Assembly: GCA_938009905.1 (NCBI GenBank)
Contig: CALLGK010000174.1
Span: 1-35,484, forward strand
Length of the DNA: 35,484 nucleotides
Direction of reading: 5' to 3'
Source: an uncultured Acidimicrobiales bacterium
GTDB lineage: Bacteria > Actinomycetota > Acidimicrobiia > Acidimicrobiales > SZUA-35
Shown here: in pieces, positions 4,740 to 34,228 of the stretch
Layout: every line of letters begins with the position of its first letter
Position numbering within the stretch: position 1 is the first letter of the stretch
The notes under the pieces: generated by a model
What the model saw: the letters and a program-made list of their open reading frames with translations, nothing else
Told to the model about the DNA's origin: nothing
Databases searched by the model: none
Made by a program: the position numbers and the translations under genes

Positions 4740-5217
4740 ATTCGGTCGAATGGTGTGTGGACCCTCTGCTCATCGTCACGCGCCAGTCGGTGAACCCGTG
4801 GTTTCGCCAAAACTCGATGGCACGTGCGTCGAATGCCAGGGTTCCAACTTCGATCACCGTGATGCCAAGGCTCTCTGCGTGCTCGTTGACGGGATCGAAC
4901 AGAAGTGAACCGACCCCGTTCCTCCGAAACGGTGCGGCAACGTAGGCGTCAGTGACTACGAGCGTCGATGGCGTATCGAGGACTGGGTGCGCAGGAGCGG
5001 GCCTGGCAACGATGAAACCTGCGATCTCGCCACGCACCTCGGCGACCCAAGCTGGTTGATCATCGGTTAGCCACACCTTGATGGATTCGGCCATTGCCTG
5101 ATCCGCACCTTGCTTGATCTGATACCGCCGGTCTGCTTCGTGCCCAGCTGCGCTCAGCTCGCTCCACAACTCAAGCAACCTGTTCGCGTCATCTGCATGC
5201 GCCCGTCGAATCTTCAC
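4729..5217 (-). CDS. GNAT-family N-acetyltransferase
   Basis: 162 residues, a typical single-domain GNAT length. It begins MKIRRAHADDANRLLELW, the standard beta1-alpha1 opening. Acetyl-CoA-binding motif A is clear: VVTDAYVAAPFRRNGVGSLLF (about 87-107), with the pyrophosphate-binding R-R-N-G-V-G. Motif B follows (ITVIEVGTLAFDARAIEFWRNHGF), ending in the characteristic Y/F-x-x-x-GF element. It transfers an acetyl group from acetyl-CoA to an amine; the substrate cannot be told. The last codons and stop lie in repeat A, and a second copy of that sequence lies about 105 bp upstream of its start, so the gene sits like a cassette between direct repeats. Confidence 0.9.
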   Translation of the reverse strand: MKIRRAHADDANRLLELWSELSAAGHEADRRYQIKQGADQAMAESIKVWLTDDQPAWVAEVRGEIAGFIVARPAPAHPVLDTPSTLVVTDAYVAAPFRRNGVGSLLFDPVNEHAESLGITVIEVGTLAFDARAIEFWRNHGFTDWRVTMSRGSTHHSTESTR

Positions 5218-5321
5218 GCCTGGAGCGTGACACGCCGGAGGAACGCTCCGCCACCAAGTTTGAGGTTGCGGAATTCTGTGGCGCCGCAGTGGGGCCGATA
5301 CCGAGTGCTGGTCTAGTGGAA

Positions 5322-5355
5322 GAAGGCGGGTTTACGAGCGGGTGTTATCGAGTGG
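5322..5355 (+). repeat. 34-bp direct repeat, copy B
   Basis: Near-identical (31/34) to copy A at 4706-4739. Read on the minus strand, the similarity extends past the repeat into sequence resembling the last seven codons of the GNAT gene: 17 of 21 bases match, including the TAA stop. Copy B may therefore be the leftover 3' end of a second, deleted GNAT-like gene rather than a recombination site. Confidence 0.75.
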
Positions 5356-5393
5356 TGTCCATCGAACCGGTCAACCCCAGACCACCCGCGAGG

Positions 5394-5624
5394 ATGGGCC
5401 GAGATGAGTCAAGGCACATACGTCGTGTGGTCGTGACTGATCTAGGCCGCCAAGGGGTTGACGTTCTTGTCGATTCTGTCGATGACGGCGCTAGTCCGCT
5501 TCACGCCGGCGACTTGGTCGTGGCTGCGAGCGGCGAACCGGGTGCATCAATCCTTGACCTCGCAGCGCGCACCGTGATCGAGTTGCGAGGTGATGCTGAG
5601 CGCCACATTGGCCTTGACGACTGA
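5394..5624 (+). CDS. Small hypothetical protein, doubtful
   Basis: A 76-codon frame from the ATG at 5394 has coding-like codon choice and a plausible composition: beta-strand-like VVVTDLGRQGVDVLVDSV, then GDLVVAASGEPGASILDLAARTVIEL as an alternating strand/helix pattern. The frame stays open upstream to a GTG at 5289, across repeat B. No family is recognised, no Shine-Dalgarno is obvious and the gene is isolated between repeat B and the convergent TetR gene. It may be a fragment of a larger lost gene or a spurious frame. Confidence 0.3.
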   Translation: MGRDESRHIRRVVVTDLGRQGVDVLVDSVDDGASPLHAGDLVVAASGEPGASILDLAARTVIELRGDAERHIGLDD

Positions 5625-5662
5625 AGGGGTTCTTGTCCGTCTCGGACTTGTGTTGGAGGTTG

Positions 5663-6238
5663 TCAGCTGCACGCCCTCCAGATGAGGGCTGCGGTGCGTT
5701 GCGGCCAGTCGTTCGCGATCGGCTCATGGGCGAGCCGTAGGCCGTACATCGTGCCGGTCGCTGCTGCTGTTGCGTAGTCCAGGTCGGCATCAGCGTCGAG
5801 GTGGCCGGCATCGACTCCTCGTTGGAGAATCGTTCGGATCCGTCGGCGGCGGGGCGCAACGATGCGTTCGCTGTACAGGATCTTCAGTTCACTGTCGGGG
5901 GCAGCTTGCAGCATGGCTCCGACCATCCCGATGCCATTGGGACGCATCACGCCGTCGAAGAAGCCGGTGAGTTCGGCGAGGAGATCCTGGTACGGGTCGT
6001 CAGTGGCGATCCGTTCGTCGGCCTTCGACATCGACGCGATGGCTGCGGTTGCCAGGTCAGCCTTGGTTGGCCAGCGTCGATAGAGAGCCTGACGCGTCGT
6101 GCCAGCGGCCTCGGCCACTGCAACCACGGACATGGCCTCGTAGCCGTGAATTGCGAGTTGGGCTCGCGCTGCGCTCAGTACGGCTTCATCGATGTGGGTG
6201 TTTCGCGGCCGGCCGGGGGTTCGCCTTTCAGATGTCAC
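5663..6238 (-). CDS. TetR/AcrR-family repressor, divergent regulator
   Basis: 191 residues. It begins with the GRPRNTHIDEAVLSAA segment typical of TetR proteins, followed by the HTH (MSVVAVAEAAGTTRQALYRRWPTKADL, about 35-61) with the conserved R-W-x-T-K-x-x-L. The C-terminal part is helical, with PNGIGMVGAMLQAAPDSELKILYSER and a repeated Arg run typical of TetR_C ligand domains. It is divergently transcribed from the NADP-binding protein gene at 6303 across a 64-bp gap holding a near-perfect 26-bp palindrome, so it probably represses that unit and itself. Confidence 0.92.
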   Translation of the reverse strand: MTSERRTPGRPRNTHIDEAVLSAARAQLAIHGYEAMSVVAVAEAAGTTRQALYRRWPTKADLATAAIASMSKADERIATDDPYQDLLAELTGFFDGVMRPNGIGMVGAMLQAAPDSELKILYSERIVAPRRRRIRTILQRGVDAGHLDADADLDYATAAATGTMYGLRLAHEPIANDWPQRTAALIWRACS

Positions 6239-6259
6239 TTCTCAATCGTAGACCGATAT

Positions 6260-6285
6260 GTTACGGTACAGTACTGTTACGTAAC
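6260..6285. promoter_or_regulatory. 26-bp near-perfect palindrome, TetR operator
   Basis: The 26 bases starting GTTACGGTAC and ending GTTACGTAAC match their own reverse complement at 22 of 26 positions. A perfect ACAGTACTGT core sits at its centre and GTTAC/GTAAC lies at the ends. It occupies the divergent gap between the TetR gene (start 6238) and the gene at 6303. Position and symmetry make it the expected operator for the adjacent repressor. Confidence 0.85.
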
Positions 6286-6302
6286 TACGGACGGAGAACT
6301 GG

Positions 6303-6929
6303 GTGACGACAGGAACGCAAACATCGGTGGCCGTTCTCGGCGCAGGACCGGTCGGCCGGGCGCTGGTTGATGGACTCCACCGAGCAGGACGGACGGTTCG
6401 CGTCGGGGTTCGCTCGCCCGACGATGCCAAGTACCAGGATCTCGACGCAGCGATCGAAGTCGTCACGATCGAGGCCGCCGTTGCTGCTTCGGATGTGACC
6501 ATTCTTGCTGTTCCAGCCGACGCGCTGGGCTCGGTCCTGTCGACAACATCGTTCGAGCCGGGTCACATCGTGATCGATGCTTGCAACGCCGTCTTCACCG
6601 CCATGCCCGAAGGTTTCGATTCGATCGGCGACTTCGTGGCTTCACGTCTCGGACCCGGCGTCGGGTTTGTGAAGGCGTTCAACACCATTGGGGCTGAACA
6701 CCTCGGCAACGGGGCGTTCGACGACGGCCGGGCCTTTCTGCCGATCGCTGGCGACCCACTCGCCGTCGAGGCTGCAACGGAACTGGCAACGATGCTGGGC
6801 TTCGACGCAGTAGCACTTGGCGGGCGTGACGTGATCGGCATGGTCGAAGACCACGCCCGACTCTGGATCCATCTCGCGTTCCGTTGCGGATGGGGTCGCG
6901 ACTTCGGTTTCACGAGAGTTCAGCGATGA
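6303..6929 (+). CDS. NADP-binding oxidoreductase, F420-NADP reductase (NpdG)-like
   Basis: 208 residues with an N-terminal Rossmann dinucleotide-binding fold: VAVLGAGPVGRALVDGL (about 9-25), the VRSPDD loop after beta2 that in this family contacts the NADP 2'-phosphate, then VTILAVPADAL and VIDACNAV. FVKAFNTIGAEHL (about 122-134) is the hallmark segment of the NADPH-dependent F420 reductase/NADP-binding family. Members move hydride between NADP and F420 or act as stand-alone NADP-binding reductases; which applies here cannot be told. The GTG start at 6303 has a GGAG about seven bases upstream. It is the first gene of a plus-strand group (6303-9129) facing a TetR repressor, with its operator immediately upstream. 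Confidence 0.82.
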   Translation: MTTGTQTSVAVLGAGPVGRALVDGLHRAGRTVRVGVRSPDDAKYQDLDAAIEVVTIEAAVAASDVTILAVPADALGSVLSTTSFEPGHIVIDACNAVFTAMPEGFDSIGDFVASRLGPGVGFVKAFNTIGAEHLGNGAFDDGRAFLPIAGDPLAVEAATELATMLGFDAVALGGRDVIGMVEDHARLWIHLAFRCGWGRDFGFTRVQR

Positions 6930-7032
6930 CGGGAGCCGAGGCAAGAGGTCATGCCGAATCGGCATTTCCCGCCGTCGTCGGATCGCTTCACGCTGTTCAC
7001 ATGACCGAACCCAGAGCAAGGGCAGGAACCTG

Positions 7033-7698
7033 ATGCGGATTGGCATCGTCGGGGCAGGCAACATCGGGACCAACTGCGCGGTGCAGTTCCTCGCTGGCGG
7101 CCACGAAGTCATGTTGAGTTTCAGTCGAGACCCGGCGTCGCTTTCAGCGCTCGCCGATCAACTCGGCGCAGGTTGCACATCCGGCCAGGTGGCCGAGGCG
7201 GTCGCCTTCGCCGATGTCGTTGTTCTTTCGGTGCCATGGCCAGTGATCGACCTCGCCCTCGAACAAACCGGGTCATTGGAGGGGACACTCGTGATCGATA
7301 CGACCAATCAGTTCGGTGCCGATGGTGTGGTGGATCTCGGTGGCGGCACCGCCGCGCGGTTCAACAGCGACCGAATGCCAGGCGCTCGCTACACCAAGTC
7401 GTTCAACACCATCACCGCCGGGTACCAGCGGCAAGCGGCCGGGCGGACCGGGTCCGATCGTCTCGTGCAGTGGATCTGCGGCGATGACCAAGGAGCCAAA
7501 CACATCACCGCAGGCCTTGTCCACGACGCCGGCTACGCACCTGTCGACCTCGGCAGTATCGATGCCTGCACCGTGATGGAAGCACCACGGCGTGTCGGCG
7601 CCGTCTACGGCGAGGAGTACCGCAGCGACGACGCCAACCAGGTCGTCGCTGCGGTGCGCACCAACGAACCGATCCCACCTACCCCGACCTACTCGTGA
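7033..7698 (+). CDS. Second NpdG-like NADP-binding oxidoreductase
   Basis: 221 residues, same family as the gene at 6303 but clearly diverged. It has a dinucleotide motif IGIVGAGNIGTNCA (about 3-16), SFSRDPASL after beta2, VVVLSVPWPVI, TLVIDTTNQF and the family segment YTKSFNTITAGYQ (about 120-132). The start at 7033 is preceded by AGGA. A 103-base gap separates it from the first paralogue, so they may be co-transcribed. Tandem paralogues of this type suggest either two substrates or one duplication; redox of F420 or of a small carbonyl compound is possible. Confidence 0.82.
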   Translation: MRIGIVGAGNIGTNCAVQFLAGGHEVMLSFSRDPASLSALADQLGAGCTSGQVAEAVAFADVVVLSVPWPVIDLALEQTGSLEGTLVIDTTNQFGADGVVDLGGGTAARFNSDRMPGARYTKSFNTITAGYQRQAAGRTGSDRLVQWICGDDQGAKHITAGLVHDAGYAPVDLGSIDACTVMEAPRRVGAVYGEEYRSDDANQVVAAVRTNEPIPPTPTYS

Positions 7699-7790
7699 GA
7701 CCTCACGAAACAAGCCGGGGTCTCGAACCAGCCCAGATCCTTATCGACCTCTCAACCACTCATTTCAACTGAACCAAAGGAACGAAACTC

Positions 7791-8531
7791 ATGGCACAAA
7801 CAGTCGACACCCACGGGTCCACCAAGAAGATCCTCATCGTTGCTTCCAACCCCGCTATCTCCGCCCAGACCGGCTGGCCCATCGGATTCTGGTGGGGTGA
7901 GCTGACACACCCGTACTGGGAGTTCACCGAAGCGGGCTACGACGTCACCATCGCCAGCCCTGACGGCGGAGCAATCACCGGCGACGGTTTCTCCGATCCC
8001 GAAGACGAGTCGGGATACTCCGCCCACGACCTCATCTCTCTCGGGTTCAAGAAGAGCCCAATCCACGCCGGACTTCTCGACAGCACCGTTGCCATTGCCG
8101 ACGTGAACGTCGCTGAGTTCGACGGCGTCCTCTTGGTTGGCGGCCAAGGCCCGATGTACACGTTCATGGGGAACGGCGACCTCTATGACCTCGTCCGAGA
8201 CTTCTACGAAGCCGGTAAAGCAACGGCCGTGATATGCCACGCGACCTGCATCCTTCTCGAAGCCACGAAGACCGACGGATCGCTCATCGTCGACGGGAAG
8301 ACTTGGACCGGGTTTGCCAACAGCGAGGAGGACTACGCCGACGGGTTCGTCGGACAGGCCATCCAACCGTTCCGTATCGAAGATCGGGCCAAAGCGCTCG
8401 ACAACACCAACTTCATCGTCGATTCGATGTTCAAGCCCTTCGCAGTTCGCGATGGCAACCTCATCACCGGCCAACAGCAGTACGCAGGAGCCGCCGCAGC
8501 CAAGCTGGTGATCGAGGCTCTCGGTGTCTGA
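7791..8531 (+). CDS. DJ-1/PfpI-superfamily protein (Hsp31-like)
   Basis: 246 residues of the type 1 glutamine amidotransferase-like/DJ-1 superfamily. The nucleophile elbow is AVICHATCILLEA with Cys149-His150; Glu37 in GFWWGELTHPYWEF is the acid that pairs with the Cys in Hsp31/DJ-1-type enzymes. GYDVTIASPDGG and DGVLLVGGQGPMYTF are further family signatures. Relatives act as glutathione-independent glyoxalases, deglycases or chaperones, detoxifying methylglyoxal-type aldehydes. The start has a good AAAGGAA ribosome site. It lies 92 bases behind the second NpdG-like gene and overlaps the next gene by eight bases, so this part is an operon, probably a redox or aldehyde stress unit under the TetR protein. 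Confidence 0.88.
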   Translation: MAQTVDTHGSTKKILIVASNPAISAQTGWPIGFWWGELTHPYWEFTEAGYDVTIASPDGGAITGDGFSDPEDESGYSAHDLISLGFKKSPIHAGLLDSTVAIADVNVAEFDGVLLVGGQGPMYTFMGNGDLYDLVRDFYEAGKATAVICHATCILLEATKTDGSLIVDGKTWTGFANSEEDYADGFVGQAIQPFRIEDRAKALDNTNFIVDSMFKPFAVRDGNLITGQQQYAGAAAAKLVIEALGV

Positions 8532-11824: not shown

Positions 11825-12172
11825 ATGCAATACGCACTCCTGGCCTACGAAGACATCGACGCCACCGAAGCACGCACCGACGAAGAACAAAGCGAACTCC
11901 TCGCCGGCTACGGCAAAGTCGCTCAGGCTCTTGCAGAGCAAGGCAAACTCGTCTTCGGCGACGGACTCCGATCTTCGGTGGTCGCGACGACCGTACGTCC
12001 CGGAACTGACCAGGCAATCGTCACCGACGGACCCATCACCGAAGGGCGTGAGCACCTAATAGGTGTCTTCGTGATCGAAGCGACCGACCTCGATGAAGCA
12101 CTCAATTGGGCGGGCCAGATGCCCCATGCGCAGACATCAGGCGGCGTAGAGATCCGCCCCGTCGGCGCGTGA
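11825..12172 (+). CDS. YCII/DGPF-domain protein, ECF42 partner
   Basis: 115 residues, the normal size for a single DGPF (YCII-related) domain. Family features are MQYALLAYED at the N-terminus, the central VVATTVRPG, the TDGPITEGREHLIGVFVIEA segment (about 67-86) that carries the DGPF/DGPxxE motif, and DLDEALNWAGQMPHA. The biochemical role of these proteins is unclear; the family resembles small-molecule binding YCII enzymes. It has a GGAG nine bases before the ATG, and its stop overlaps the GTG of the sigma factor by four bases (12169-12172). DGPF genes are the known partners and targets of ECF42 sigma factors, so the two almost certainly act together. Confidence 0.9.
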   Translation: MQYALLAYEDIDATEARTDEEQSELLAGYGKVAQALAEQGKLVFGDGLRSSVVATTVRPGTDQAIVTDGPITEGREHLIGVFVIEATDLDEALNWAGQMPHAQTSGGVEIRPVGA

Positions 12173-13410
12173 CGATCGACGATGCACTCTTCAAACAAGC
12201 TTGGCCGCGCGTCTACGCTGCGGCCGTCCGATCCGCCGGCGGAGATTTCGCCGCGGGCGAAGACGCAACCGCAGAGGCATTCGAACGCGCAACACGCACA
12301 TGGACACATGGCCGGCCCGACAACCCGGTCGGATGGTTGATCACCACCGCACGCCGCATCACGATTGACGAGCGCCGCAAGCAAGCCACCCGAAACCGTA
12401 CGGCCCGACGTCTCAGCCCCGACGCAGAAGACGACAACTCACCGGCGTCAAGCATTACAGGAGACGACGTTCTCGATCTGTTCTTCACTTGCGCCCATCC
12501 TTCGCTCACACCCGAAGCGCAAGTCGCCCTCACACTCCGAGCCGTTGCCGGAATGCGCCCCGCCGAGATCGCCAGAGCGTTTCACTGCTCACCGTCAACG
12601 ATGGAAAAAAGACTGGTTCGGGCGCGACGCAAGATCCGCGAAGCCGGTATCTCGCTCCGATCACCAGACCGAGCAGAACTCGATGATCGCCTCGGCCCCG
12701 TGATGCGATCAATTCTGCTCGTCTTCAACGAAGGCTACGCACCGACCGCCGGGGATGAGGCGTTCCGACAAGAACTCTGCGACGAAGCGATTCTCCTCGC
12801 CCGGAGCCTGCACGACATGCTCCCCGACCAAGCCGAGCCCGCAGCGCTCCTTGCAACCCTGCTCTTGATCGATGCACGCAAGTCGGCGCGAGTCGATGAG
12901 AGCGGCGGTCTGGTACCTCTTCGCTTCCAGAACCGGCAACGCTGGAACAGCACGAACATCGCGGAAGGCGTCGAACTCACCCTCGGAGCACTGAACTCGC
13001 CGAAGCGTGGGGACTACACGCTGCAAGCCGCAATCGGCGCCCTCCACATGGAAGCGCCGAGGCACGAACTCACCGACTGGCCCCAGATCGCCTTCCTGTA
13101 CGAACAGCGCCTGGAGCAATTCCGAACCCCATCGCCCACGCTTGTCATCGCACATTCGATTGCTGTCGCCGAAGCCCACGGCACTTGCGCAGCACGGCCA
13201 CTTCTCTACGGGCTCAAACCCGCCGAGGACGTCACCGCGTTTCTACATCACACGGCGCTGGCACGCTTCGCTGAGATCGACAACGACATCGAGGCCGCCT
13301 TGCGAAACATCGCCGCGGCCGCAGCAGCCGCCCCCACGACTGCCGACCGCACCGCACTGGACAAATGGTCAACCAAACTCGAGAAAAGTCGGGCCTCGCC
13401 GAACACTTGA
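12169..13410 (+). CDS. ECF42-type RNA polymerase sigma factor with long C-terminal extension
   Basis: 413 residues from the GTG at 12169, chosen because it overlaps the DGPF stop as GTGA. Region 2 spans about 8-75 (VGWLITTARRITIDERRKQATRNR ends sigma2, with the promoter -10 reading helix). Sigma4 is about 115-165, with the HTH GMRPAEIARAFHCSPSTMEKRLVRAR. Beyond it, about 230 residues are a helical, TPR-like extension typical of this group: LLVFNEGYAPTAGDEAF, ALLATLLLIDARKSARVD, LQAAIGALHMEAP and HELTDWPQIAFLYEQ all match the classic pattern. ECF42 members carry no cognate anti-sigma; the C-terminal extension is thought to be needed for activity. The signal is unknown. The gene's 3' end overlaps a truncated PNPOx remnant on the opposite strand. 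Confidence 0.93.
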   Translation: MTIDDALFKQAWPRVYAAAVRSAGGDFAAGEDATAEAFERATRTWTHGRPDNPVGWLITTARRITIDERRKQATRNRTARRLSPDAEDDNSPASSITGDDVLDLFFTCAHPSLTPEAQVALTLRAVAGMRPAEIARAFHCSPSTMEKRLVRARRKIREAGISLRSPDRAELDDRLGPVMRSILLVFNEGYAPTAGDEAFRQELCDEAILLARSLHDMLPDQAEPAALLATLLLIDARKSARVDESGGLVPLRFQNRQRWNSTNIAEGVELTLGALNSPKRGDYTLQAAIGALHMEAPRHELTDWPQIAFLYEQRLEQFRTPSPTLVIAHSIAVAEAHGTCAARPLLYGLKPAEDVTAFLHHTALARFAEIDNDIEAALRNIAAAAAAAPTTADRTALDKWSTKLEKSRASPNT

Positions 13411-21501: not shown

Positions 21502-23922
21502 GTGTCGAACGAGCACTCAACCTCCGAGACGTCGCCGGTTTCCGACGATGCACTTGCCTCTGAACGGTTGATGATCGACGCCATCGGAGCTGCTCATCTA
21601 CGGGAGCTCGATCGAGCTCGACGGGTGGCTGAGGGGCTGGCGGCCGAAGCGGCAGAAATGACAGAAGAGGGCATTCGCGACATCTTCGACGACGACGCCG
21701 AAGCCGATGCTGCTGTCGAAGCGGCACTCGTGCGGCAGACGTCTGACCGGGCGATGCATGCAGCCCGTCGCGTGGCCGAGTTGGAGGCTCAGGGCGAAGC
21801 GCTTGCCTTCGGACACTTCACGACAGACGACGAGAAGCTCTACATCGGCCGCATGACGGTGCTCGATGGCGACGACGCGCTTCTTGTCGATTGGCGGGCA
21901 CGGGCGTCCATCCCGTTCTACCGAGCCACGCCGTTGGACAGCCTTGGAGTTCACCACCGACGTCATCTTCAGTTCGACGCGGAAGAGCGGACGCTTGTCG
22001 GCTACTCAGACGAGGTCTTTGATCTCGAGACACTCGACGCCACCCACGGATTGCGAGGCGAAGCGGCGATTCTTGCGTCGCTCTCAGCTCCCACCCAGGA
22101 ACAGATGCGTTCTGTGGTGGCCACGATTCAGTCTGAGCAGGACGCCGTCATTCGAGCGTCGAGCAGCGGCCCTCTTGTTGTGCAGGGGGCGCCAGGAACC
22201 GGCAAGACAGTCGTGGCACTGCATCGTGCCGCCTACCTGCTGTACGACCAACGGGCCGCCCTCGCCGACTCCGGCGTGCTGATCGTCGGTCCCACCAACG
22301 AGTTCCTCCGCTACATCAGCGGCGTGCTGCCATCGCTCGGCGAGTCGGGTGTTGTTTCGGTGACCGCCAACAAGCTGTACCCAGGCATTCTGCTCGGCTC
22401 GTCAGAAGCTCCCGAGGTTGCCGATCTAAAGGGCAGTGCGGCGATGGCGATGTTCTTGGCCGCTGCGGTCGCCGACCGACAACGTCGGCCGTCAGGTCCG
22501 CTCGACGTGTTCTTTGGTTCAGCTCGGGTGCGGATCGAGGTCGATAAGGCCCAGCAGATCTTTGATCGTGCCCGCCGCCATCCGTCCCACAACGATGGTG
22601 CAGACGAGTTCAGGTCGTTGATTCTCGATGCGCTCACAGCAGAGGTGCACAACCCGGCGTTTGATGTCAGTGGAAGCGGCAACGCCGAGGCTCGGGCCTC
22701 GTTCCGGCAGTCGCCGGCGGTCGAGACCTTTCTGCTTCGCCACTTCCCGCCGCTCACACCAGAACGAGCGCTGCGTGATCTGCTCGGCTCTCGAGCCCTC
22801 GTTCGCTCAGCTGCTCGGCAAGCGGGCATCGACGTTGCTGTCGCCGATCTGCTTGTTCGAGATCGGGTGGCGGAAGATGACCTGCCCAACATTCGCTGGA
22901 CAAACGCAGACGTTGGCCTCCTCGATGAGCTCCACGCGCTGCTGGGCGGTTCGATGGGGCAAACCGAAGAAGAGCGGGCCAGGGTGCGAGACGCCATCGA
23001 CGAGTTCGAGCTTGCTCGGCGCCACGACGACATCGAACCAATCTCGCTTCCCGACTTCGATGATCTGGTCGAGCTCGATGATGACCCTGACGAGTTTCAG
23101 ATCATGGCGTTTGAGGACATCGCAGAACTCACAGAGGTCGAAGACGAGTCCGGGGCTCGGACGAATCCGGACGATCGGTACGTCGCCGAAGACGACGATG
23201 ACGACGAGCCGGTGCGCGAGCTCGAGCTTGCTGGTGCAGACGATCTCGACGAAGCCGGTTCGACCGTTGTCGAGCTGGCGTTCGGGCAGCGATCGTGGCG
23301 CTTCGGGCATGTGATTGTCGACGAGGCGCAAGATCTCACACCGATGGAGTGGCGCATGATTGTTCGTCGGGCCAAGGGCGGCTCGATGACGATCGTTGGC
23401 GACCTGGCCCAACGATCAATCGGACCCCCGGGAACGTGGCGAGATCACCTGCCTGCAGCGGTCAAGGAGTTTGACTACCAGGAACTCACGATCAACTACC
23501 GGTCACCAGCCGAGGTGAACGATCTCGCCGCTCGGATTCTCGCTGACCTCGCGCCTGAGCTATCGGCGGCCACATCGATTCGATCGTCTGGCTACGAGCC
23601 TCGGTTCGTGTCGGTGGCATCAATGGCTGACGAGCTGCCGGCGATTGTTTCCGACGCAGCGGCTGCGGTGGAAGGAACGTCGGGCGTCATCGGGTTCGAT
23701 CTCGACGACGACCTTGCGAATAGTGGGGCGCAGGTGCTTCGGCCGTGGCAATCAAAGGGCCTCGAATTTGAGACCGTTGTGGTGGTGGAACCAAGCCGAT
23801 TTCTCAAAGAACCCGGTGGGCTGAGCTTGCTCTACGTGGCCATCACCAGAGCAACAAGCCAGCTGATCATCGTGCACGAAGATGATCTGCCGGATGTGCT
23901 CGCGGGCGAGAAGACCACTTAG
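21502..23922 (+). CDS. helD: HelD/HelR-type RNA polymerase-recycling ATPase
   Basis: 806 residues, matching the actinobacterial HelD class (UvrD-like superfamily 1). An N-terminal helical, coiled-coil-like region (about 20-105) would enter the RNA polymerase secondary channel. FTTDDEKLYIGRMTVLDGDD and VDWRARASIPFYRATP (about 130-145) are signature strings. The Q-motif IQSEQDAVI and Walker A GAPGTGKT (229-236) follow; the 1A/1B segment is interrupted by a specific insertion with strongly acidic stretches (EDESGARTNPDDRYVAEDDD). Walker B is HVIVDEAQDLTPMEW, then VGDLAQRS, LTINYRSPAEVN and SKGLEFETVVVVEP. HelD dissociates stalled polymerase and in some species (HelR) protects it from rifamycins. 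Starts at GTG 21502. The stop overlaps the next, convergent gene by four bases. Confidence 0.92.
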   Translation: MSNEHSTSETSPVSDDALASERLMIDAIGAAHLRELDRARRVAEGLAAEAAEMTEEGIRDIFDDDAEADAAVEAALVRQTSDRAMHAARRVAELEAQGEALAFGHFTTDDEKLYIGRMTVLDGDDALLVDWRARASIPFYRATPLDSLGVHHRRHLQFDAEERTLVGYSDEVFDLETLDATHGLRGEAAILASLSAPTQEQMRSVVATIQSEQDAVIRASSSGPLVVQGAPGTGKTVVALHRAAYLLYDQRAALADSGVLIVGPTNEFLRYISGVLPSLGESGVVSVTANKLYPGILLGSSEAPEVADLKGSAAMAMFLAAAVADRQRRPSGPLDVFFGSARVRIEVDKAQQIFDRARRHPSHNDGADEFRSLILDALTAEVHNPAFDVSGSGNAEARASFRQSPAVETFLLRHFPPLTPERALRDLLGSRALVRSAARQAGIDVAVADLLVRDRVAEDDLPNIRWTNADVGLLDELHALLGGSMGQTEEERARVRDAIDEFELARRHDDIEPISLPDFDDLVELDDDPDEFQIMAFEDIAELTEVEDESGARTNPDDRYVAEDDDDDEPVRELELAGADDLDEAGSTVVELAFGQRSWRFGHVIVDEAQDLTPMEWRMIVRRAKGGSMTIVGDLAQRSIGPPGTWRDHLPAAVKEFDYQELTINYRSPAEVNDLAARILADLAPELSAATSIRSSGYEPRFVSVASMADELPAIVSDAAAAVEGTSGVIGFDLDDDLANSGAQVLRPWQSKGLEFETVVVVEPSRFLKEPGGLSLLYVAITRATSQLIIVHEDDLPDVLAGEKTT

Positions 23923-25226
23923 CGCCTCAGACGGCTGAGAAGATCAGCGGCGATCACATCGACGGGTCGACCATCCGTCGCCACGCACTCAAAACTCTCG
24001 TAGACGGGCGCCCGCTCAGCCAGCAGTTCTGTGACTCGGGCAGCCGGGTCTGCTCCGGCCAGCAACGGTCGGTGTTCTGTGTCGCCAACTCGGTCGATGA
24101 TCTCGGACGCGTCAGCGGTGAGAGCGAAAACGCGACCCGCATTGGACAGAATCTCGCGGTTAGTAGCGTCGAGCATGAGGCCACCTCCAGTGGCAACCAC
24201 TACGCCCTGACGGCTTGCCGCCGCGGCCGCCACATCTCGCTCGAGTTCGCGGAAGCGGCCCTCGCCGTATTCGGCAAAGATCTGCGGAATTGGTCCGTGC
24301 TCGGCCTCGATCGCGACGTCGGTGTCGATGAAGTCGACGCCAAGTGCTTCCGCGAGCGCGGCGCCGACGCTTGACTTGCCGGTCCCCATGAACCCAGTGA
24401 GCACCACTGTTGGCTGCACCGCAGCCAAGAGGCGGTCGCGAGCCCGTACCCAGGCCGGGTGATCTGGTTCGATGAGTTCCATGTGGCCAACGTCTCGGAA
24501 CTCGTCGTACGTCGTAGGGACGGGCGACGCGGTCACGAGGTCGACGTAACGCCGCACGTAATCCAGGGGCACGTCCTCGTCGGTGGTGCCCTGAATGATC
24601 GCCTGCGGGGTCGGCGCCTTTGACACATCGAGAAGGGCAGCAGGGGAGGCCTCTCGGTAACGATCCAAGACGTCGTCAGGCGTTCCTCCAAGCAGATCGC
24701 TGATTGCTCCGTTGCCGAGCCCGTTGGCCCAACCATCCTCGAGGTCAGCAACCGGCGCCAGACCAACGGCGAGGGCGATGGGTGTGGTGAGCCGATCGCA
24801 TAGCGTTGACCACAGGGCCAGATGACCGCCTGCGCTATGGCCGACAATGCCGTGACGGCCCACATCGAGCCCGAACTCTTCAGCGATCGTCGCAACATGG
24901 TTGATTGCCGCAATCACGTCGTCACCTGTGCCGGGCCATCCTCCGCCCTCGTGGCCGACCCGGCGGTACTCGATGTTCCACACCGCGCAGCCGTCGTCGA
25001 GAAGCGAGGCCGCCATCGGATCCATCAAATCGAGGGCCCATGTGCTACGCCAGAAGCCTCCGTGAACAAGCGTCACGATTGGCCAACCGGCCGCCGGGGT
25101 TGCACCGTCAGGGAGCCAAAGTTCGCCGAATTGATGCGTCTGTTGGCCGTAGGGGATCTGGCGAGGGTTGGACACGAAGACGGAGCGTAGTTGGTGCCAT
25201 TGGCCCGTCCTGCCCTGTGCTCGCAT
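23919..25226 (-). CDS. aroK: Alpha/beta hydrolase fused to shikimate kinase
   Basis: 435 residues from the ATG at 25226. A longer start at 25292 is open, but would run into the divergent neighbour's start and lacks recognisable domain sequence; a GTG at 25175 is also possible. Residues about 30-270 are an alpha/beta hydrolase of the BD-FAE/esterase group: oxyanion HGGFWRSTW (HGG at 56-58), GHSAGGH with nucleophile Ser131, TTDEDVPLDYV with the acid, and GHMEL with His248. About 273-435 is a complete shikimate kinase: P-loop GFMGTGKSS (278-286), DTD (301-303) binding Mg and shikimate, FRELERDV, TGGGLML (346-352), and the lid TEHRPLL. Both halves appear intact. Shikimate kinase phosphorylates shikimate in aromatic amino acid synthesis and is normally alone or in an aro cluster, none of which is seen here. 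The fusion is unusual. No frameshift is visible. Confidence 0.9.
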   Translation of the reverse strand: MRAQGRTGQWHQLRSVFVSNPRQIPYGQQTHQFGELWLPDGATPAAGWPIVTLVHGGFWRSTWALDLMDPMAASLLDDGCAVWNIEYRRVGHEGGGWPGTGDDVIAAINHVATIAEEFGLDVGRHGIVGHSAGGHLALWSTLCDRLTTPIALAVGLAPVADLEDGWANGLGNGAISDLLGGTPDDVLDRYREASPAALLDVSKAPTPQAIIQGTTDEDVPLDYVRRYVDLVTASPVPTTYDEFRDVGHMELIEPDHPAWVRARDRLLAAVQPTVVLTGFMGTGKSSVGAALAEALGVDFIDTDVAIEAEHGPIPQIFAEYGEGRFRELERDVAAAAASRQGVVVATGGGLMLDATNREILSNAGRVFALTADASEIIDRVGDTEHRPLLAGADPAARVTELLAERAPVYESFECVATDGRPVDVIAADLLSRLRR

Positions 25227-25290
25227 GGGTCGATCTGCCAGATTCGCAAAAACTACGCAAGGCACGGCCGTTGTTCGCCGATAGGCAATC

Positions 25291-26778
25291 ATGACCCCCG
25301 ACGCCCGACCCGCGGGCCCTGCGACCGCGCCGCCGCCTCCTCCATCTGACGCTGTGGCACCTCCGCCGGTGCGACCAACTCCGCTCGCCCGTCGCCGTGG
25401 GTTTGATGCGCAAGCTCACGTTGCTCCCGAGCACCGTCGGCCAAAGCCGCCAGTTGAGAAGGAGCGTCGCTCTGTTCCGCGGCCTCCCAAGAACCTTGAA
25501 GAGCTCGACATCCCCATTGGCCTGATCGAAGACATCTTCATGCGTCGTCTTCTTGGCCAAAAGCAGAGCTCGACGAGTGACATGGCCAACGATCTCGCGC
25601 TCTCGCTCTCTGTTGTGCACGAAGTCGCCGATCGTCTGCGTGACAAGAACCTGCTCGAGTACTTGGGTCTCGACGGGCGCGACTATCGATTCACGCTCAC
25701 CGAGTCTGGACACAAGGCCACCAACGAGCGGTTCAAGGTGTCGATGTATGCGGGCCAAGTTCCCGTGTCTCTGACCGACTACGAACAGGTCGTTGAAGCC
25801 CACCGAAAGCGTCCGCCGCTCAACCGTGAGTCGACAGAAGGCGTGATGCGTGACTTGATCATGCCTCGCCGCCTTATCGACAAACTGGGTGCAGCCATGC
25901 TGAACGACGGCGCCGTGTTCATCTACGGACCGCCCGGCACCGGCAAGACCAGCATGGCCGAACGTATCGGCGAAGTCTCTGCCGACTGGGTGCTGGTTCC
26001 TCGGTGCATCGAAGTCGATGGCAACGTCGTGGTGGTCTTCGATCCCTCGATTCACAAGCCTGTCGAACAGCCGGCGGGCCTCGACCCTCGATGGGTGGCA
26101 TGCGAACGGCCCTTCGTCATCGTCGGTGGCGAGCTCAACATGGGCATGCTCGAGCTGAACCATGATCCGGTCACCGGCGTCTACAGCGCACCGAAGCAGC
26201 TGCTGGCCAACAACGGCATTCTCGTGATCGACGACTTCGGCCGTCAGCTCGTTTCTCCCGATGAGATCTTGAATCGGTGGATCGTGCCGCTCTCCAGAGA
26301 CATCGACTTCTTGAAGCTTGCGAACGGCACAACCTTCACCACCCCGTTTGCCGTGAAGTTGATCGTGTCGAGCAATCTCGATCCGAACTCCCTCGGCGAC
26401 GAGGCCTTCCTGCGTCGGCTTCGCAACAAGGTGTACGTGGGTGCGTGCAGCGAGAAAGAGTTCGACGAGATTCTGCGAATGGCGGCAGACAAGTCGACGG
26501 TGAAGCTCACCGATTCCTCAATGGACGATCTCCGCGAGGTCGCGTTGGAAAACGTCGGAGCGCTGCGCCCGTACATCGCCGTTGACTTCTGCGACCTGAT
26601 GACGGGAATCTGCGAGTACGAGAAGCGTCCGATGGTCATGGATCGTCAGATGATCGATGACATCGCCGACCTGTACTTCGTGAGCGAGACCGACGATCTC
26701 GGCAAGACCCGTCACGACTGCCTAGCCGGCGCCGAGATGCTCCCTGAGGAACTCGGCCGGTCCATGTTCGAGAAGTGA
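25291..26778 (+). CDS. AAA-family ATPase with N-terminal winged-helix region
   Basis: 495 residues. The first 65 are Pro/Ala/Arg-rich and likely disordered. About 70-145 has a winged-helix look (MANDLALSLSVVHEVADRLRDKNLLEYLGLDGRDYRFTLTE). The AAA module follows: Walker A YGPPGTGKTS (213-221 region), Walker B NGILVIDDFG (about 307-316), then SSNLDP (sensor 1) and LRRLRNKVYVGA (Arg-finger/sensor 2 region). FVIVGGELNMGMLELNHDPVTG is a distinctive insertion between them. I know homologues of such ATPases in several phyla, sometimes near Flp/Tad pili, but the function is not established. It overlaps the convergent esterase by 57 bases. Confidence 0.85.
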   Translation: MTPDARPAGPATAPPPPPSDAVAPPPVRPTPLARRRGFDAQAHVAPEHRRPKPPVEKERRSVPRPPKNLEELDIPIGLIEDIFMRRLLGQKQSSTSDMANDLALSLSVVHEVADRLRDKNLLEYLGLDGRDYRFTLTESGHKATNERFKVSMYAGQVPVSLTDYEQVVEAHRKRPPLNRESTEGVMRDLIMPRRLIDKLGAAMLNDGAVFIYGPPGTGKTSMAERIGEVSADWVLVPRCIEVDGNVVVVFDPSIHKPVEQPAGLDPRWVACERPFVIVGGELNMGMLELNHDPVTGVYSAPKQLLANNGILVIDDFGRQLVSPDEILNRWIVPLSRDIDFLKLANGTTFTTPFAVKLIVSSNLDPNSLGDEAFLRRLRNKVYVGACSEKEFDEILRMAADKSTVKLTDSSMDDLREVALENVGALRPYIAVDFCDLMTGICEYEKRPMVMDRQMIDDIADLYFVSETDDLGKTRHDCLAGAEMLPEELGRSMFEK

Positions 26779-29654: not shown

Positions 29655-29689
29655 CAAGCCAACAACAGCGAAGCGCTCAAACTGAAGAG

Positions 29690-29760
29690 AGCGGGTACGG
29701 GGAATCGAACCCCGGTCAACAGGTTGGAAACCTGTGGCTCTACCATTGAGCTACACCCGC
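29690..29760 (-). tRNA. tRNA-Gly, anticodon TCC
   Basis: A 71-base cloverleaf on the minus strand: acceptor GCGGGTG/TACCCGC (last pair G-U), D-arm GCTC...GAGC, anticodon stem ACAGG/CCTGT with loop TTTCCAA giving anticodon TCC (reads GGA), and T-arm CGGGG TTCGATT CCCCG. CCA is not encoded. No duplicated 3' end suggesting an integrated element was seen nearby. Confidence 0.96.
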
Positions 29761-29830: not shown

Positions 29831-30424
29831 ATGGGCGCGATGGTCCCAAGCAGTGATGCGGCATCAAACAGTGTGGCCGAGATCGATGGGTGGCTTGATG
29901 CGTCCCTCGGAGCCATGCGGGCCAGGGCGGATGAGCTGCCGGGTCAACAGGGCAAAACGGTCGCGGCTGGACTCGCCCGTTTCGCCGAAGAGAAAGATCC
30001 GCTGGAAGCCCCGACCGCAATCTCTCTCCAGGTCGTCGACGAGTTCCTTGCGTCGCGCGCAGGTGCAGCCCGTGTGCACGGCTTGCCGCTCAGCACCGTT
30101 TTCGGTGCACTGCGTTGGGAGCCAACCCAACGCGCCAGCGATGGTGGAACTGAGTTCGGCCTTGCGGTTCTCACCGACTTGCTCGGTCTTGATGCCACGC
30201 AGGCGGGGATCATGGTGGTCGGTCCTGGTTGTCAATATCCCGTGCACCATCACGCACGAGCTGAGGCGTACCTGGTATTGCATGGCGTTGGGCAATGGCG
30301 GTTCGGTGGATCTGAGGAGTACGTCAGTGTCGAGCCGGGCGAGATCGTCGTGAACGAGCCGAACGACACGCACAGCGCGATTGCCGGCGACGAACCAATC
30401 GCTGCGCTCTACATCTTGTGGTGA
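29831..30424 (+). CDS. Cupin resembling DMSP lyase (DddL/DddQ/DddW group)
   Basis: 197 residues: a helical N-terminal region of about 110 residues, then a single cupin barrel. The metal motif is YPVHHHARAEAYLVL (His139, His141, Glu145, Tyr147), with the second-motif His in NEPNDTHSAIAG (His181), and the C-terminus ends ALYILW, closely like the YxW segment that closes DddQ/DddL proteins. MVVGPGCQYPVHHHA and GVGQWRFG also fit that group. DMSP lyases cleave dimethylsulphoniopropionate to DMS and acrylate; other cupins of this subgroup have unknown substrates. Start is ATG 29831 or 29840. No acrylate-utilisation or DMSP transporter gene is next to it, which lowers certainty. Confidence 0.65.
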   Translation: MGAMVPSSDAASNSVAEIDGWLDASLGAMRARADELPGQQGKTVAAGLARFAEEKDPLEAPTAISLQVVDEFLASRAGAARVHGLPLSTVFGALRWEPTQRASDGGTEFGLAVLTDLLGLDATQAGIMVVGPGCQYPVHHHARAEAYLVLHGVGQWRFGGSEEYVSVEPGEIVVNEPNDTHSAIAGDEPIAALYILW

Positions 30425-30623
30425 GTCGCGACCTCTCAGCACACAGGCGCTGAATGGCTCTTGTTGGGCAACCATGTCGAAGAAAATCGATCGACCGTAC
30501 GCCGCTTTCGCTCTGCGGATACGAGGTTGGGCCTCGGCTCGTCAGTCTTGGGGGGTACTAGTAGTATCTGACGAGATTCCAGACTGCACTCGTGAGTCAG
30601 AGCCAATCTGGGGAGATGGGCGA

Positions 30624-31124
30624 ATGGTCGTTCGGGCCGGAAACAATCGAAAACGAGGCGGCTTTCGCTTCGACGATGGGCTTGATCCCGACGTCGAGCC
30701 CGTCGAGCGGCAAGACCTGCTCGAGCTCATGGGCGAGCGTCAGGTATCCGTCGTCGAACGGCTTGTGGGCGTGGATGGCCGTGAGCGAACAGGAGCTTCG
30801 AGGCGAGCCGGCGGCCGAAACCGACTCGAGCATCAGCTCGTGACGTTCACCGGCAGTTGGGCCGACGTCGCTCTCGACATGGTGCACTGCCCAGACGGCA
30901 CCATCAACGTTTATGGCCTGGTCATGCCCGGCGACCGAGTGGATCTCGAGGCCAACCGGGACTACCTGACGAACTGCATCGCCAACTTGTGGTCGCGGCC
31001 CACCCGCAGCAATCCGGTCTCCCAACTCGGATCGTTCGAGTTCGTTGGAGTGCAACCTGGCCCGGCTGAGTTGGCCATTAGCTGTGGTGGCCATCTGTTG
31101 CTGGCCGATCTCTCGATCGAGTAG
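30624..31124 (+). CDS. Small partner protein of the CHAT protease, beta-sandwich-like
   Basis: 166 residues. The ATG at 30624 was chosen because GGGGAG lies eight bases upstream; the frame is open further upstream without domain features. An N-terminal acidic/basic stretch (DGLDPDVEPVERQDLLELMGE) precedes a beta-rich region: LVTFTGSWADVALDMVHCPD, GTINVYGLVMPGDRVDLEAN, and a closing GSFEFVGVQPGPAELAI, which resembles carboxypeptidase-regulatory-like/Ig-type beta-sandwich ends. The TACTAGTA palindrome at 30556-30563 lies about 60 bases upstream, in the promoter region. It ends ten bases before the CHAT protease gene, so they form an operon. Proteins in this place beside CHAT proteases may be substrates, regulators or sensors; no family name is certain. 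Confidence 0.7.
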   Translation: MVVRAGNNRKRGGFRFDDGLDPDVEPVERQDLLELMGERQVSVVERLVGVDGRERTGASRRAGGRNRLEHQLVTFTGSWADVALDMVHCPDGTINVYGLVMPGDRVDLEANRDYLTNCIANLWSRPTRSNPVSQLGSFEFVGVQPGPAELAISCGGHLLLADLSIE

Positions 31125-31134
31125 GTCTGTCGAG

Positions 31135-33888
31135 ATGGCAGGTGATGAAGCGTGGCGCTCCCAAGTGGCCGCCCTCGAGCGTCTCACGCCGATCGACCCC
31201 ACTGGTGTTACCACCGAAGCTCATGGGCTGGTCGCATTCGCTGAGATCAATGGCGACCTGTGCCTGCGAGCGCGAGCGAAGGTTGTCCTGGCCAAGCTGG
31301 CCCTGAACGACTGGGACCTGACGCTCGCGCGCTCGCTGCTCGACGACAGCTCGGCGTTGTTGTCCAGTGCAGTTGTCGAAGACGCGCTGAGCTTCAAGGT
31401 GGTTAAGGCCGAGCTGCTGTCGAAGACCCACCGTGTTGAAGCGTCGCTTGCTCTTTCAAGTGAGATCGTTCAGGAAACGGTCCATCTGATCGACGCAGGT
31501 GAGGCGGGCGAGTCGATTTTGTGGCTGTGCTGGAAGGCGACGTTCCTCAACAGCATTGGCCACCGTGATCTGGGGCACTTCGACGAGTCGTTGCAGGTGC
31601 TCGACACCCTCGACGACATACCGGTTCCGGCCGACGACGAGGTGCTGCCGGTGATGCTGCTAGCCAACCGGGCCCATGCCTTTGCCGACCTTGGCCGGCT
31701 TGCCGAAGGAGCCGAGGCGTTCGAGCGCGCCCGCGAGCAGTTCGCCAGGCTTGGCGCTGAGATCTACGAGCGTCGGGCTGCGGTGCATCTAGCCCACGTG
31801 TTGGCGCAGCAGGGCTTGTTTGGGCGGGCCCTGACCGTCATGCACGAGGCGCGCTCTCACTATGAGCATCACGATGTCGACGACGGCGACTGGAACAAGG
31901 CCGCCTACGACCTCGACTCGGCCAGGCTGGTGATGGCCGACGTCTACTTCATGATGGGGGCAACCGACAAAGCACTTGAACTCTTGTCGGCTGCAATCCC
32001 AACGGTGACGGAATGGAACAGGGCACGCGACATCCGTCGCGTGTTCATGATGTCAGCTGAGCTTGTTGCCGAATCATCACCCGAGCAAGCACGGGAGCTC
32101 CTCGAATCGCTGATCGAGCTGGCGTCGGAGCGAAACGATCGCATCGCGATGGCCAGAGTTGGCATGCGGATCTTCGAGCTCATTCCTGGTCACAAAAACC
32201 CAGCTCTGGTGGAGCTGATCACGGCAACCATCGAAGACATCGGATCAGACACCGACGTGGTTCGCCTTTCTCTGCTTCGAGCGGAACGGTGTCCGCCAGA
32301 AGAGACTCGTGAACACCTGGATCGGGCCGCAGAAGCAATTCAGCAGTGCTCAGATCCGAATCTGCTCTGGCAATTCCACTTTCGCGTTGGCAGCTTTGCC
32401 CTCGCAGAAGGCCAGCTCGAAGACGCACGCAACTCGCTCCACACCGCGGTCGGGATCCTGCGCGAGCTGTGGTCGTCAATTCCCGATGAGCGCTTGCGGT
32501 TTCGTCACCGGTCAGCGCACACCCATGTGGTCGACGAACTGACCAGGGCGCTGCTCGAGCTTGGGCTTGCCGAAGAGCTCTTCGAGCTGATCGAGCAGAC
32601 CTATGCGGTCACACTGCACGAGCGCATTCATGGCATGGTGCCGCCGGCAGAATGGCCAACGGTGTGCGCTGAGCTGAGCGTGATCTATCGCGAGATGGCC
32701 GAAGCCGATCCGTCGGAGTGGCCGCAGCTGAATCTTCGGGCCATCGAGATTGAGCAAGCGAGAACGGCCGGGTCGACCTCGACAGCGGTCGTGGATCAAT
32801 CCTCTGTCAAGCCTGATGCGGCGGTCCCTCCCGAGTACTGCGCCGTTTATGGCATCTGTGACGACGAGGTGTTCGCGCTGTATCGCGAGTTCGATCTTCC
32901 GCCCGTGTTGGTTCGGAATCTCACGACGCGTCAGCGCCTCGAGCGATTGCAGCTTGAGCTCGACTTGCAACGTCAGCGATGCAACGTCTCGACGTTGCAA
33001 GCGCACACCCCGCAGCTTGAAGCCATCACGAACGCGTTACTCGAAGAGCTCTTTGATCTCTTGGTTGGCCCGCCATACAGAGAGCTGGGCCTTGATCCGC
33101 AGAACCCTCCCAAGCCCGAGTGGGGCATTCAGGTTGTGTTCGTCCCGCCTCCGGGATTCGACGATCTTCCGTTCGCTGCGTTTCGGGTCGGCGGCGTGCC
33201 CCTTGTCAGCTATGCGGCGACGTGCATCGCTCCGAGCACATCACTCGCAAGCTGGGCGGGTGGCCGGGCCCGCAAAGGGCGAGCCACGCTTGCCGTCGGT
33301 ATCGCGACAGACAAACTGACTTTTCCTGAACTCGAGGCCATCGAGATCGCGGAAGCCGTCGACGGTCGAGTCTTGGTTGGGTCTGAGGCAACGATCGGCA
33401 GGCTCAGTTCGCTGGTTCCGCAGTTCGACGTGGTGCACATCGCAACGCACGGCGTTGCCCGAACAGACGACCCATGGTTCAACGGCGTGCATCTCGCCGA
33501 TGGTTGGCTCACCGCAACTGAGCTCAACGAGTGGGAGCTCGATGGTCAGATCATCATTCTCAGCGGATGCGACACCGGTCAGCAGTCGGCCCCTGGACAC
33601 GAGCTGCTTGGTCTGCCGCGTGCGTTCCTCGCCGCTGGCGCCGGGGGAGTGATTGCTGCAACGTCAGAGCTCGACGATGAGCGTGCGGCCAGCTTCATGG
33701 TGAAGCTCCACCAGAACCTCGCGAACTCTGGCCCCGCAGAAGCACTCCGACAGACGCAAGCGGAGTTCGCGAGTGCGGGTGCCGACCTACGGCAGTGGGC
33801 GTCGATGGCGTACATCGGTGGGGCAGACCGTGTGGTTGTGCCAGCCAACAGTCGAGATCTCACGAGGTCGTCTGTAACGCCCGTGTAA
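31135..33888 (+). CDS. TPR-CHAT caspase-like protease
   Basis: 917 residues from the ATG at 31135, ten bases after the preceding stop; the frame is open upstream but only as antisense-like sequence. About 1-480 are helical repeats of TPR type (ANRAHAFADLGRLAEGAEAF, FRVGSFALAEGQLEDARNSL). The C-terminal 250 residues are a CHAT domain: LPFAAFRVGG and a following Ala-rich region, the catalytic His772 in VVHIATHG, and the catalytic Cys812 in IILSGCDTG, then GLPRAFLAAGAGGVIA. CHAT proteins are caspase-fold (C14-like) proteases; bacterial ones activate gasdermins or, in type III-E systems, cleave target proteins. No gasdermin or CRISPR gene is present here. Its own flanking genes, a beta-sandwich-like protein and a tiny basic protein, may be its partners. 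Repeats at the N-terminus likely sense a signal. Confidence 0.93.
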   Translation: MAGDEAWRSQVAALERLTPIDPTGVTTEAHGLVAFAEINGDLCLRARAKVVLAKLALNDWDLTLARSLLDDSSALLSSAVVEDALSFKVVKAELLSKTHRVEASLALSSEIVQETVHLIDAGEAGESILWLCWKATFLNSIGHRDLGHFDESLQVLDTLDDIPVPADDEVLPVMLLANRAHAFADLGRLAEGAEAFERAREQFARLGAEIYERRAAVHLAHVLAQQGLFGRALTVMHEARSHYEHHDVDDGDWNKAAYDLDSARLVMADVYFMMGATDKALELLSAAIPTVTEWNRARDIRRVFMMSAELVAESSPEQARELLESLIELASERNDRIAMARVGMRIFELIPGHKNPALVELITATIEDIGSDTDVVRLSLLRAERCPPEETREHLDRAAEAIQQCSDPNLLWQFHFRVGSFALAEGQLEDARNSLHTAVGILRELWSSIPDERLRFRHRSAHTHVVDELTRALLELGLAEELFELIEQTYAVTLHERIHGMVPPAEWPTVCAELSVIYREMAEADPSEWPQLNLRAIEIEQARTAGSTSTAVVDQSSVKPDAAVPPEYCAVYGICDDEVFALYREFDLPPVLVRNLTTRQRLERLQLELDLQRQRCNVSTLQAHTPQLEAITNALLEELFDLLVGPPYRELGLDPQNPPKPEWGIQVVFVPPPGFDDLPFAAFRVGGVPLVSYAATCIAPSTSLASWAGGRARKGRATLAVGIATDKLTFPELEAIEIAEAVDGRVLVGSEATIGRLSSLVPQFDVVHIATHGVARTDDPWFNGVHLADGWLTATELNEWELDGQIIILSGCDTGQQSAPGHELLGLPRAFLAAGAGGVIAATSELDDERAASFMVKLHQNLANSGPAEALRQTQAEFASAGADLRQWASMAYIGGADRVVVPANSRDLTRSSVTPV

Positions 33889-33913
33889 CGCCGTCCATCG
33901 CACAGTGCTCTCT

Positions 33914-33939
33914 CTACGTACGGATCTCTCCATACGTAG
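33914..33939. promoter_or_regulatory. Inverted repeat ahead of the 53-aa gene
   Basis: CTACGTA (33914-33920) and TACGTAG (33933-33939) are perfect complements separated by 12 bases. The right arm touches the GGAGGG ribosome site of the gene at 33951. It could be an operator for a regulator, or an RNA hairpin that hides or exposes the ribosome site. Confidence 0.6.
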
Positions 33940-33950
33940 GGAGGGAACGC

Positions 33951-34112
33951 ATGAGCGACGCACGGAACAAGAAGGGCAACAACGACGGGAAGACGTCTGA
34001 GCGATTGGGGCGGTGGACCGGCCTTAAACGCTTGCGGCGATCCCACCCTCGGTCGGACCAGAAGAACGCTGTGGTCGATTCGGTGGCGAAAGGGTTCTTG
34101 CTCGGCCGCTGA
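33951..34112 (+). CDS. Small basic protein downstream of the CHAT gene
   Basis: 53 residues from the ATG at 33951, which follows an excellent ribosome site (GGAGGG, five bases upstream). Composition is very basic: MSDARNKKGNNDGKTSERLG then a Trp, KRLRR, HPRSDQKNAV and a hydrophobic tail VAKGFLLGR. No family is recognised. It begins 62 bases behind the CHAT protease stop on the same strand, with its own inverted repeat, and may be co-transcribed. A peptide precursor, a substrate cleaved by the protease, or a nucleic-acid-binding peptide are all possible. The strong ribosome site makes translation likely. Confidence 0.65.
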   Translation: MSDARNKKGNNDGKTSERLGRWTGLKRLRRSHPRSDQKNAVVDSVAKGFLLGR

Positions 34113-34154
34113 AGGTTGCCAGCCGAGGCAACCCTTGTTCCGACGTGTTCGTTG

Positions 34155-34228
34155 TCGGGATGGTGAGATTTGAACTCACGACCCCCTGCTCCCAAAGCAG
34201 GTGCGCTACCAACCTGCGCCACATCCCG
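34155..34228 (-). tRNA. tRNA-Pro, anticodon TGG
   Basis: A 74-base cloverleaf on the minus strand: acceptor CGGGATG/CATCCCG, D-arm GCGC...GCGC, anticodon stem CCTGC/GCAGG with loop TTTGGGA giving anticodon TGG (reads CCA), and T-arm GTGAG TTCAAAT CTCAC. CCA is not encoded. It is divergent from tig. Confidence 0.96.

Follow-up and report, generated by a model that had tools for sequence, protein, structure and literature searches.

A conserved TPR-CHAT protease and short anti-sigma-like beta-sandwich gene pair, probably derived from an ECF54-type sigma module

CHAT proteases pair with bacterial gasdermins. Another partnership is that of the type III-E CRISPR system, in which the TPR-CHAT protease Csx29 cleaves the sigma inhibitor Csx30, an event proposed to free CASP-sigma (PMC10028731). 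CHAT proteins also occur in the gene context of ECF54, where an ECF sigma factor is encoded with carboxypeptidase-like, subtilase and CHAT proteins, and the review passage that sets out this group describes it as having no anti-sigma factor (PMC8999054, citing Casas-Pastor 2021 and Huang 2015). Within the literature searched, that review is the only place where ECF54 and CHAT are named together.

In this study, we examine a TPR-CHAT protease gene and its small neighbours in the window, the whole 35,484-nucleotide stretch of DNA that was analysed, which is one entire contig of an uncultured Acidimicrobiales genome (G000; 4.38 Mb in 343 contigs, 85% complete). Homologues were sought in 119 relatives and in 298 genomes of the order. 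G002 (91% complete) and G004 are sister species of the same genus, and G011 belongs to the same family.

The locus resembles the ECF54 type in combining a CHAT protease of intact dyad with a carboxypeptidase-regulatory-like partner, and the gene order of its relatives suggests that it derives from such a module, whose gene context matches ECF54; the likeness is drawn from gene context. It differs in having neither a sigma gene nor a subtilase gene, and the pair is therefore classed as a derivative of the ECF54-type context and not as a member. A further difference is that the review gives the group no anti-sigma factor, whereas the carboxypeptidase-like protein here resembles such a factor. 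The resemblance to Csx29-Csx30-CASP-sigma is an analogy of working: in full modules a TPR-CHAT protease lies beside a protein that probably inhibits an ECF-type sigma factor, but the window pair has no sigma gene and no recognised Cas7-11 or other CRISPR gene nearby (PADLOC gave no Cas7-11 match among the ten larger window ORFs scanned). The beta-sandwich profiles A5 and A6 did not match Csx30 in a PDB search with E values up to 10, which leaves shared ancestry with the CRISPR-linked system unsupported. With gasdermin loci the window shares a CHAT protease and an adjacent small partner gene, but the partner is a small beta-sandwich protein, and neither the 166-aa nor the 53-aa protein of the window had a gasdermin match in Pfam, NCBIfam or PADLOC.

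The locus and its conserved gene pair

In the 917-aa protein (31135-33888, plus strand), Pfam places a CHAT domain (PF12770, E 1.2e-35) at residues 634-895 (33034-33819), along with weak TPR matches. His772 and Cys812 (codons 33448-33450 and 33568-33570) are invariant in all nine aligned proteins, with relatives 20-48% identical, and the CHAT sequence matches Csx29-type CHAT chains in the PDB, which bears out the original prediction of a TPR-CHAT protease with an intact His/Cys dyad. The stop of the 166-aa ORF (30624-31124, plus strand) lies 10 bases before the 917-aa ORF, a spacing that was confirmed. Among the 119 relatives, a homologue of the 166-aa protein occurs only in G002 and G004, in each case just upstream of TPR-CHAT. 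The two genes are genuine and their pairing is conserved; both are intact and under purifying selection. Between the two sigma-less species, the window's and G002, dN/dS for CHAT is about 0.25, a rough figure because dS is near saturation. The loss of sigma and subtilase, together with fast divergence (48-52% identity, as against 91% for trigger factor), could be taken to mark a decaying remnant without present function, but with both ORFs intact in two species, the dyad kept and dN/dS at this value, we regard decay as very improbable.

The CHAT tree, in which the branch of the genus is long, has no row for the window and does not place it; the order of the sisters was taken from pairwise identities. 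At loci L016 and L017, beside CHAT, the cupin, 166-aa and CHAT products are about 40-50% identical, as against 87-91% for trigger factor in the same genomes.

The 166-aa protein had been guessed to be a beta-sandwich, and this was upheld by AlphaFold2, which places strands across residues 70-165 (block-mean pLDDT for the most part above 90) and gives one N-terminal helix at low confidence. The sandwich, taken as residues 70-166, is encoded at 30831-31121. Pfam CarboxypepD_reg matches weakly in four of nine family members and is absent from the window protein.

In the window, G002 and G004 alike, the locus lies upstream of trigger factor, with tRNA-Gly on one side and tRNA-Pro on the other. The window tRNA genes, at 29689-29760 and 34154-34228 (both on the minus strand), border a block made up of a cupin gene, the 166-aa gene and CHAT, with a sigma gene where one is present. 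This block looks like an insertion at the tRNA pair, because in G011 the same two tRNA genes are only 46 bp apart (L064, 1236-1429), a block-free site seen in that one genome. In G020 (L137), an integrase-like ORF adjoins the same tRNA-Pro, which raises the possibility of an integration site here; a search near the left boundary for an att-like repeat of the tRNA-Pro end found none. The cupin gene (29831-30424, plus strand; DMSP-lyase-like, Pfam PF16867, E 2.4e-13) is associated with the locus: it is next to the module in both G002 and G004, 15 bp upstream of sigma in the latter, and may be a further module component. Elsewhere in the window, an 806-aa protein (21502-23922), for which PADLOC gave weak matches of the UvrD-helicase type (GajB and others), is probably an ordinary helicase, and a single ORF at 23922-25292 seems to join an esterase-like domain (BD-FAE) to a shikimate kinase domain.

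Downstream of CHAT lies a strong hairpin (33908-33945, plus strand; z -6.0) without a T run, and then a basic 53-aa ORF (33951-34112, plus strand) that the original prediction had counted as a third component with a strong ribosome site. The ORF exists 62 bp after CHAT, and it has a good Shine-Dalgarno sequence, as a three-gene proteolytic system would have it. However, the ribosome site falls within the 3' arm of the hairpin, and no homologue of the ORF was found in the 119 relatives; the 298 order genomes gave only two 34-residue matches (E 0.004), each with an internal stop. In G002 the CHAT stop is about 80 bp from tRNA-Pro, which leaves no room for such an ORF, and in G004 an acetyltransferase-like ORF occupies the corresponding position. 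A system of three genes is thus scarcely credible, and by these comparisons the 53-aa ORF is judged unrelated and outside the system. Of the proposed three-gene linkage, only the part joining the 166-aa gene to CHAT, seen in G002 and G004, holds.

The beta-sandwich family and its sigma module

In other genera of the family, CHAT is preceded by a protein of 208-222 aa, which aligns with the window protein in its C-terminal half; the gene for this longer protein is in turn preceded by an ECF sigma gene. Profile A3 of this family found members in 32 of the 298 order genomes, and in most surveyed loci a beta-sandwich protein is encoded beside TPR-CHAT. Judged by its ORF, AlphaFold2 model, family profile and gene linkage, the 166-aa protein is a member of this usual partner family of such CHAT proteases, an anti-sigma-like beta-sandwich protein of short form. 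The earlier statement that no dedicated partner is present does not stand.

Among the 38 beta-sandwich loci of the order with enough upstream sequence, sigma is directly upstream in 34 (33 by script plus L112, in which the ORFs overlap by 4 bases). At L020 it is elsewhere in the same cluster, which brings the loci with a clustered sigma to 35 of 38; it is missing only in the window, G002 and L114. The last of these (4900-8071) is a second, separate sigma-less beta-sandwich/TPR-CHAT pair, from another family of the order (G271).

A scan from the sigma side covered 80 loci in Actinomycetota, Chloroflexota, Planctomycetota, Pseudomonadota, Armatimonadota, Eisenbacteria and Krumholzibacteriota; since it began from a sigma motif, it is uninformative on how often sigma is missing. 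Where enough downstream sequence was available (61 loci), the beta-sandwich gene was present in 49, CHAT in 50, subtilase in 43 and all of them in 37, some loci being without CHAT or without the sandwich gene. Full sigma/beta-sandwich/TPR-CHAT/subtilase modules are present in Actinomycetota, Chloroflexota, Planctomycetota, Betaproteobacteria and others, and in Modestobacter, a member of the Geodermatophilaceae, to which the review's ECF54 example also belongs. One Krumholzibacteriota locus (L212, 8989-15734) has two sigma/beta-sandwich pairs around a single CHAT and a single subtilase gene. The description of the window system as self-contained fails here, as in relatives an ECF sigma gene, and often a subtilase gene too, is part of the unit, and the window pair is accompanied by neither.

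The long-form beta-sandwich protein is likely the anti-sigma factor of the module, a reading drawn from a zinc motif, profile matches in the PDB and a predicted helical domain, each of them modest alone. The motif H-x3/4-C-x2-C occurs in 8 of 101 beta-sandwich proteins, where shuffled sequences lead one to expect 0.03. A 30-sequence profile run against the whole PDB matched 3hug, which we take to be RslA (E 2.7e-4), followed by ChrR (0.003), DdvA (0.005) and RsiW (0.01), with RskA weaker (0.07). AlphaFold2 predicts four helices and then the sandwich for the long form, and Pfam zf-HC2 matches on long forms fall under the curated cut-off (best E 0.0011). The Foldseek matches of both models were weak and of a generic beta-sandwich kind (best E 0.016 and 0.0056), and were excluded from the evidence; no anti-sigma factor or Csx30 was among the best 50 matches listed. 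The H-x3-C-x2-C anti-sigma domain, present or recognisable in the long forms of the family, is absent from the window protein. Because short forms, the window's included, lack most of this domain, their anti-sigma reading rests on the homologous long forms.

Apparent loss of the sigma gene in the window lineage

The order of genes in G004, at the same tRNA-flanked site, is cupin, sigma, beta-sandwich gene and CHAT; in the window and G002 it is the same, minus sigma. The position held by sigma in G004 corresponds to the gap between the cupin and 166-aa genes (30425-30623, plus strand), in which a search for a sigma remnant found none. This comparison of gene orders indicates that the sigma gene was lost from between the two in the window lineage. 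No close sigma was found elsewhere in G000 or G002 either, the best matches being generic ECFs of 25-27% identity. A second sigma-like protein of the window (12106-13410), with DUF6596 and sigma-70 region 4 and of the ECF42 kind, is not the missing partner. As for the subtilase, the L142 protein had no homologue at E 1e-5 in any of G000, G002 and G004, and no subtilase gene is next to the pair.

The genomes being 85% and 91% complete, there is room for an unlinked copy of sigma, and the module may then be merely split, with the 166-aa protein still controlling an ECF sigma encoded elsewhere or in the unassembled part. The N-terminal segment of the protein (residues 23-46, 30690-30761) could be read in the same direction: it is 83% identical between the sigma-less species and 38% identical to G004, where the sandwich gives 51% and 47%, and such conservation would suggest that it still binds something. 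The contrast has a Fisher p of 0.003, for a segment picked after the alignment had been viewed, and serves as a lead only. Against a split module are the generic character of the best sigma matches and the linked gene in G004; moreover, sigma is missing in two genomes alike, which makes an assembly gap less likely. We consider it unlikely that the module is merely split.

Proposed function of the pair

We put at a little above even the chance that the pair is the protease and anti-sigma-like half of an ECF54-type sigma module that has lost its sigma and now acts on another partner. In the full module, the N-terminal anti-sigma domain of the beta-sandwich protein would hold the ECF sigma. On a signal sensed by its TPR part, the CHAT protease would become active, cleave the beta-sandwich protein and so free the sigma, by analogy with Csx29-Csx30-CASP-sigma; the co-encoded subtilase may be a further output or a processing enzyme. 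In the window lineage, a short N-terminal helical segment appears to replace the anti-sigma domain and, there being no linked sigma, the output must differ or use another partner. The pair would most likely act on a partner bound by the N-terminal segment, whether a sigma or another regulator encoded elsewhere.

As the pair would be the surviving half of a sigma/anti-sigma-like/CHAT/subtilase switch, the 166-aa protein is likely the target of CHAT. Both flanking proteins had been put forward as candidate substrates; the 166-aa protein, a conserved CHAT partner, is the best candidate, and the 53-aa protein, without a homologue, drops out. The 166-aa protein might instead be a sensor or inhibitor of a CHAT protease with other targets, since its predicted sandwich fold, related to the carboxypeptidase-regulatory-like domains of relatives, could bind a ligand. 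However, the long forms, with their anti-sigma-like domain, lie between sigma and CHAT, which by the precedent of Csx30 is the position of a substrate, and we think a sensor or inhibitor slightly less likely than a split module. A regulatory role is favoured over a defensive one, both having been suggested originally, because of the ancestral sigma/anti-sigma context, the housekeeping genes on its flanks (tRNAs and trigger factor) and the weakness of the PADLOC match of the CHAT gene to BovA (E 0.0018 over 69 residues), which was taken as a shared CHAT region only.

A broader possibility, advanced tentatively, is that CHAT and its one-time anti-sigma factor have escaped the control of sigma and turned to a new partner by way of the short N-terminal segment. 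In this wider view, the widespread non-CRISPR module would be the general system, and the Csx29-Csx30-CASP-sigma portion of type III-E CRISPR would have arisen either from it or alongside it.

Two genes without prior assignment now constitute a putative, testable protease-substrate pair, and their sigma-less lineage offers a natural test of the role of a CHAT protease without sigma. The more interesting part lies in the wider family: a large sigma group gains a protein that is probably both its anti-sigma factor and the substrate of CHAT, the likely anti-sigma factor falling to an ECF group described as having none. Signalling by CHAT-controlled proteolysis of anti-sigma factors may be common among bacteria, although the literature searched shows it for type III-E CRISPR alone.
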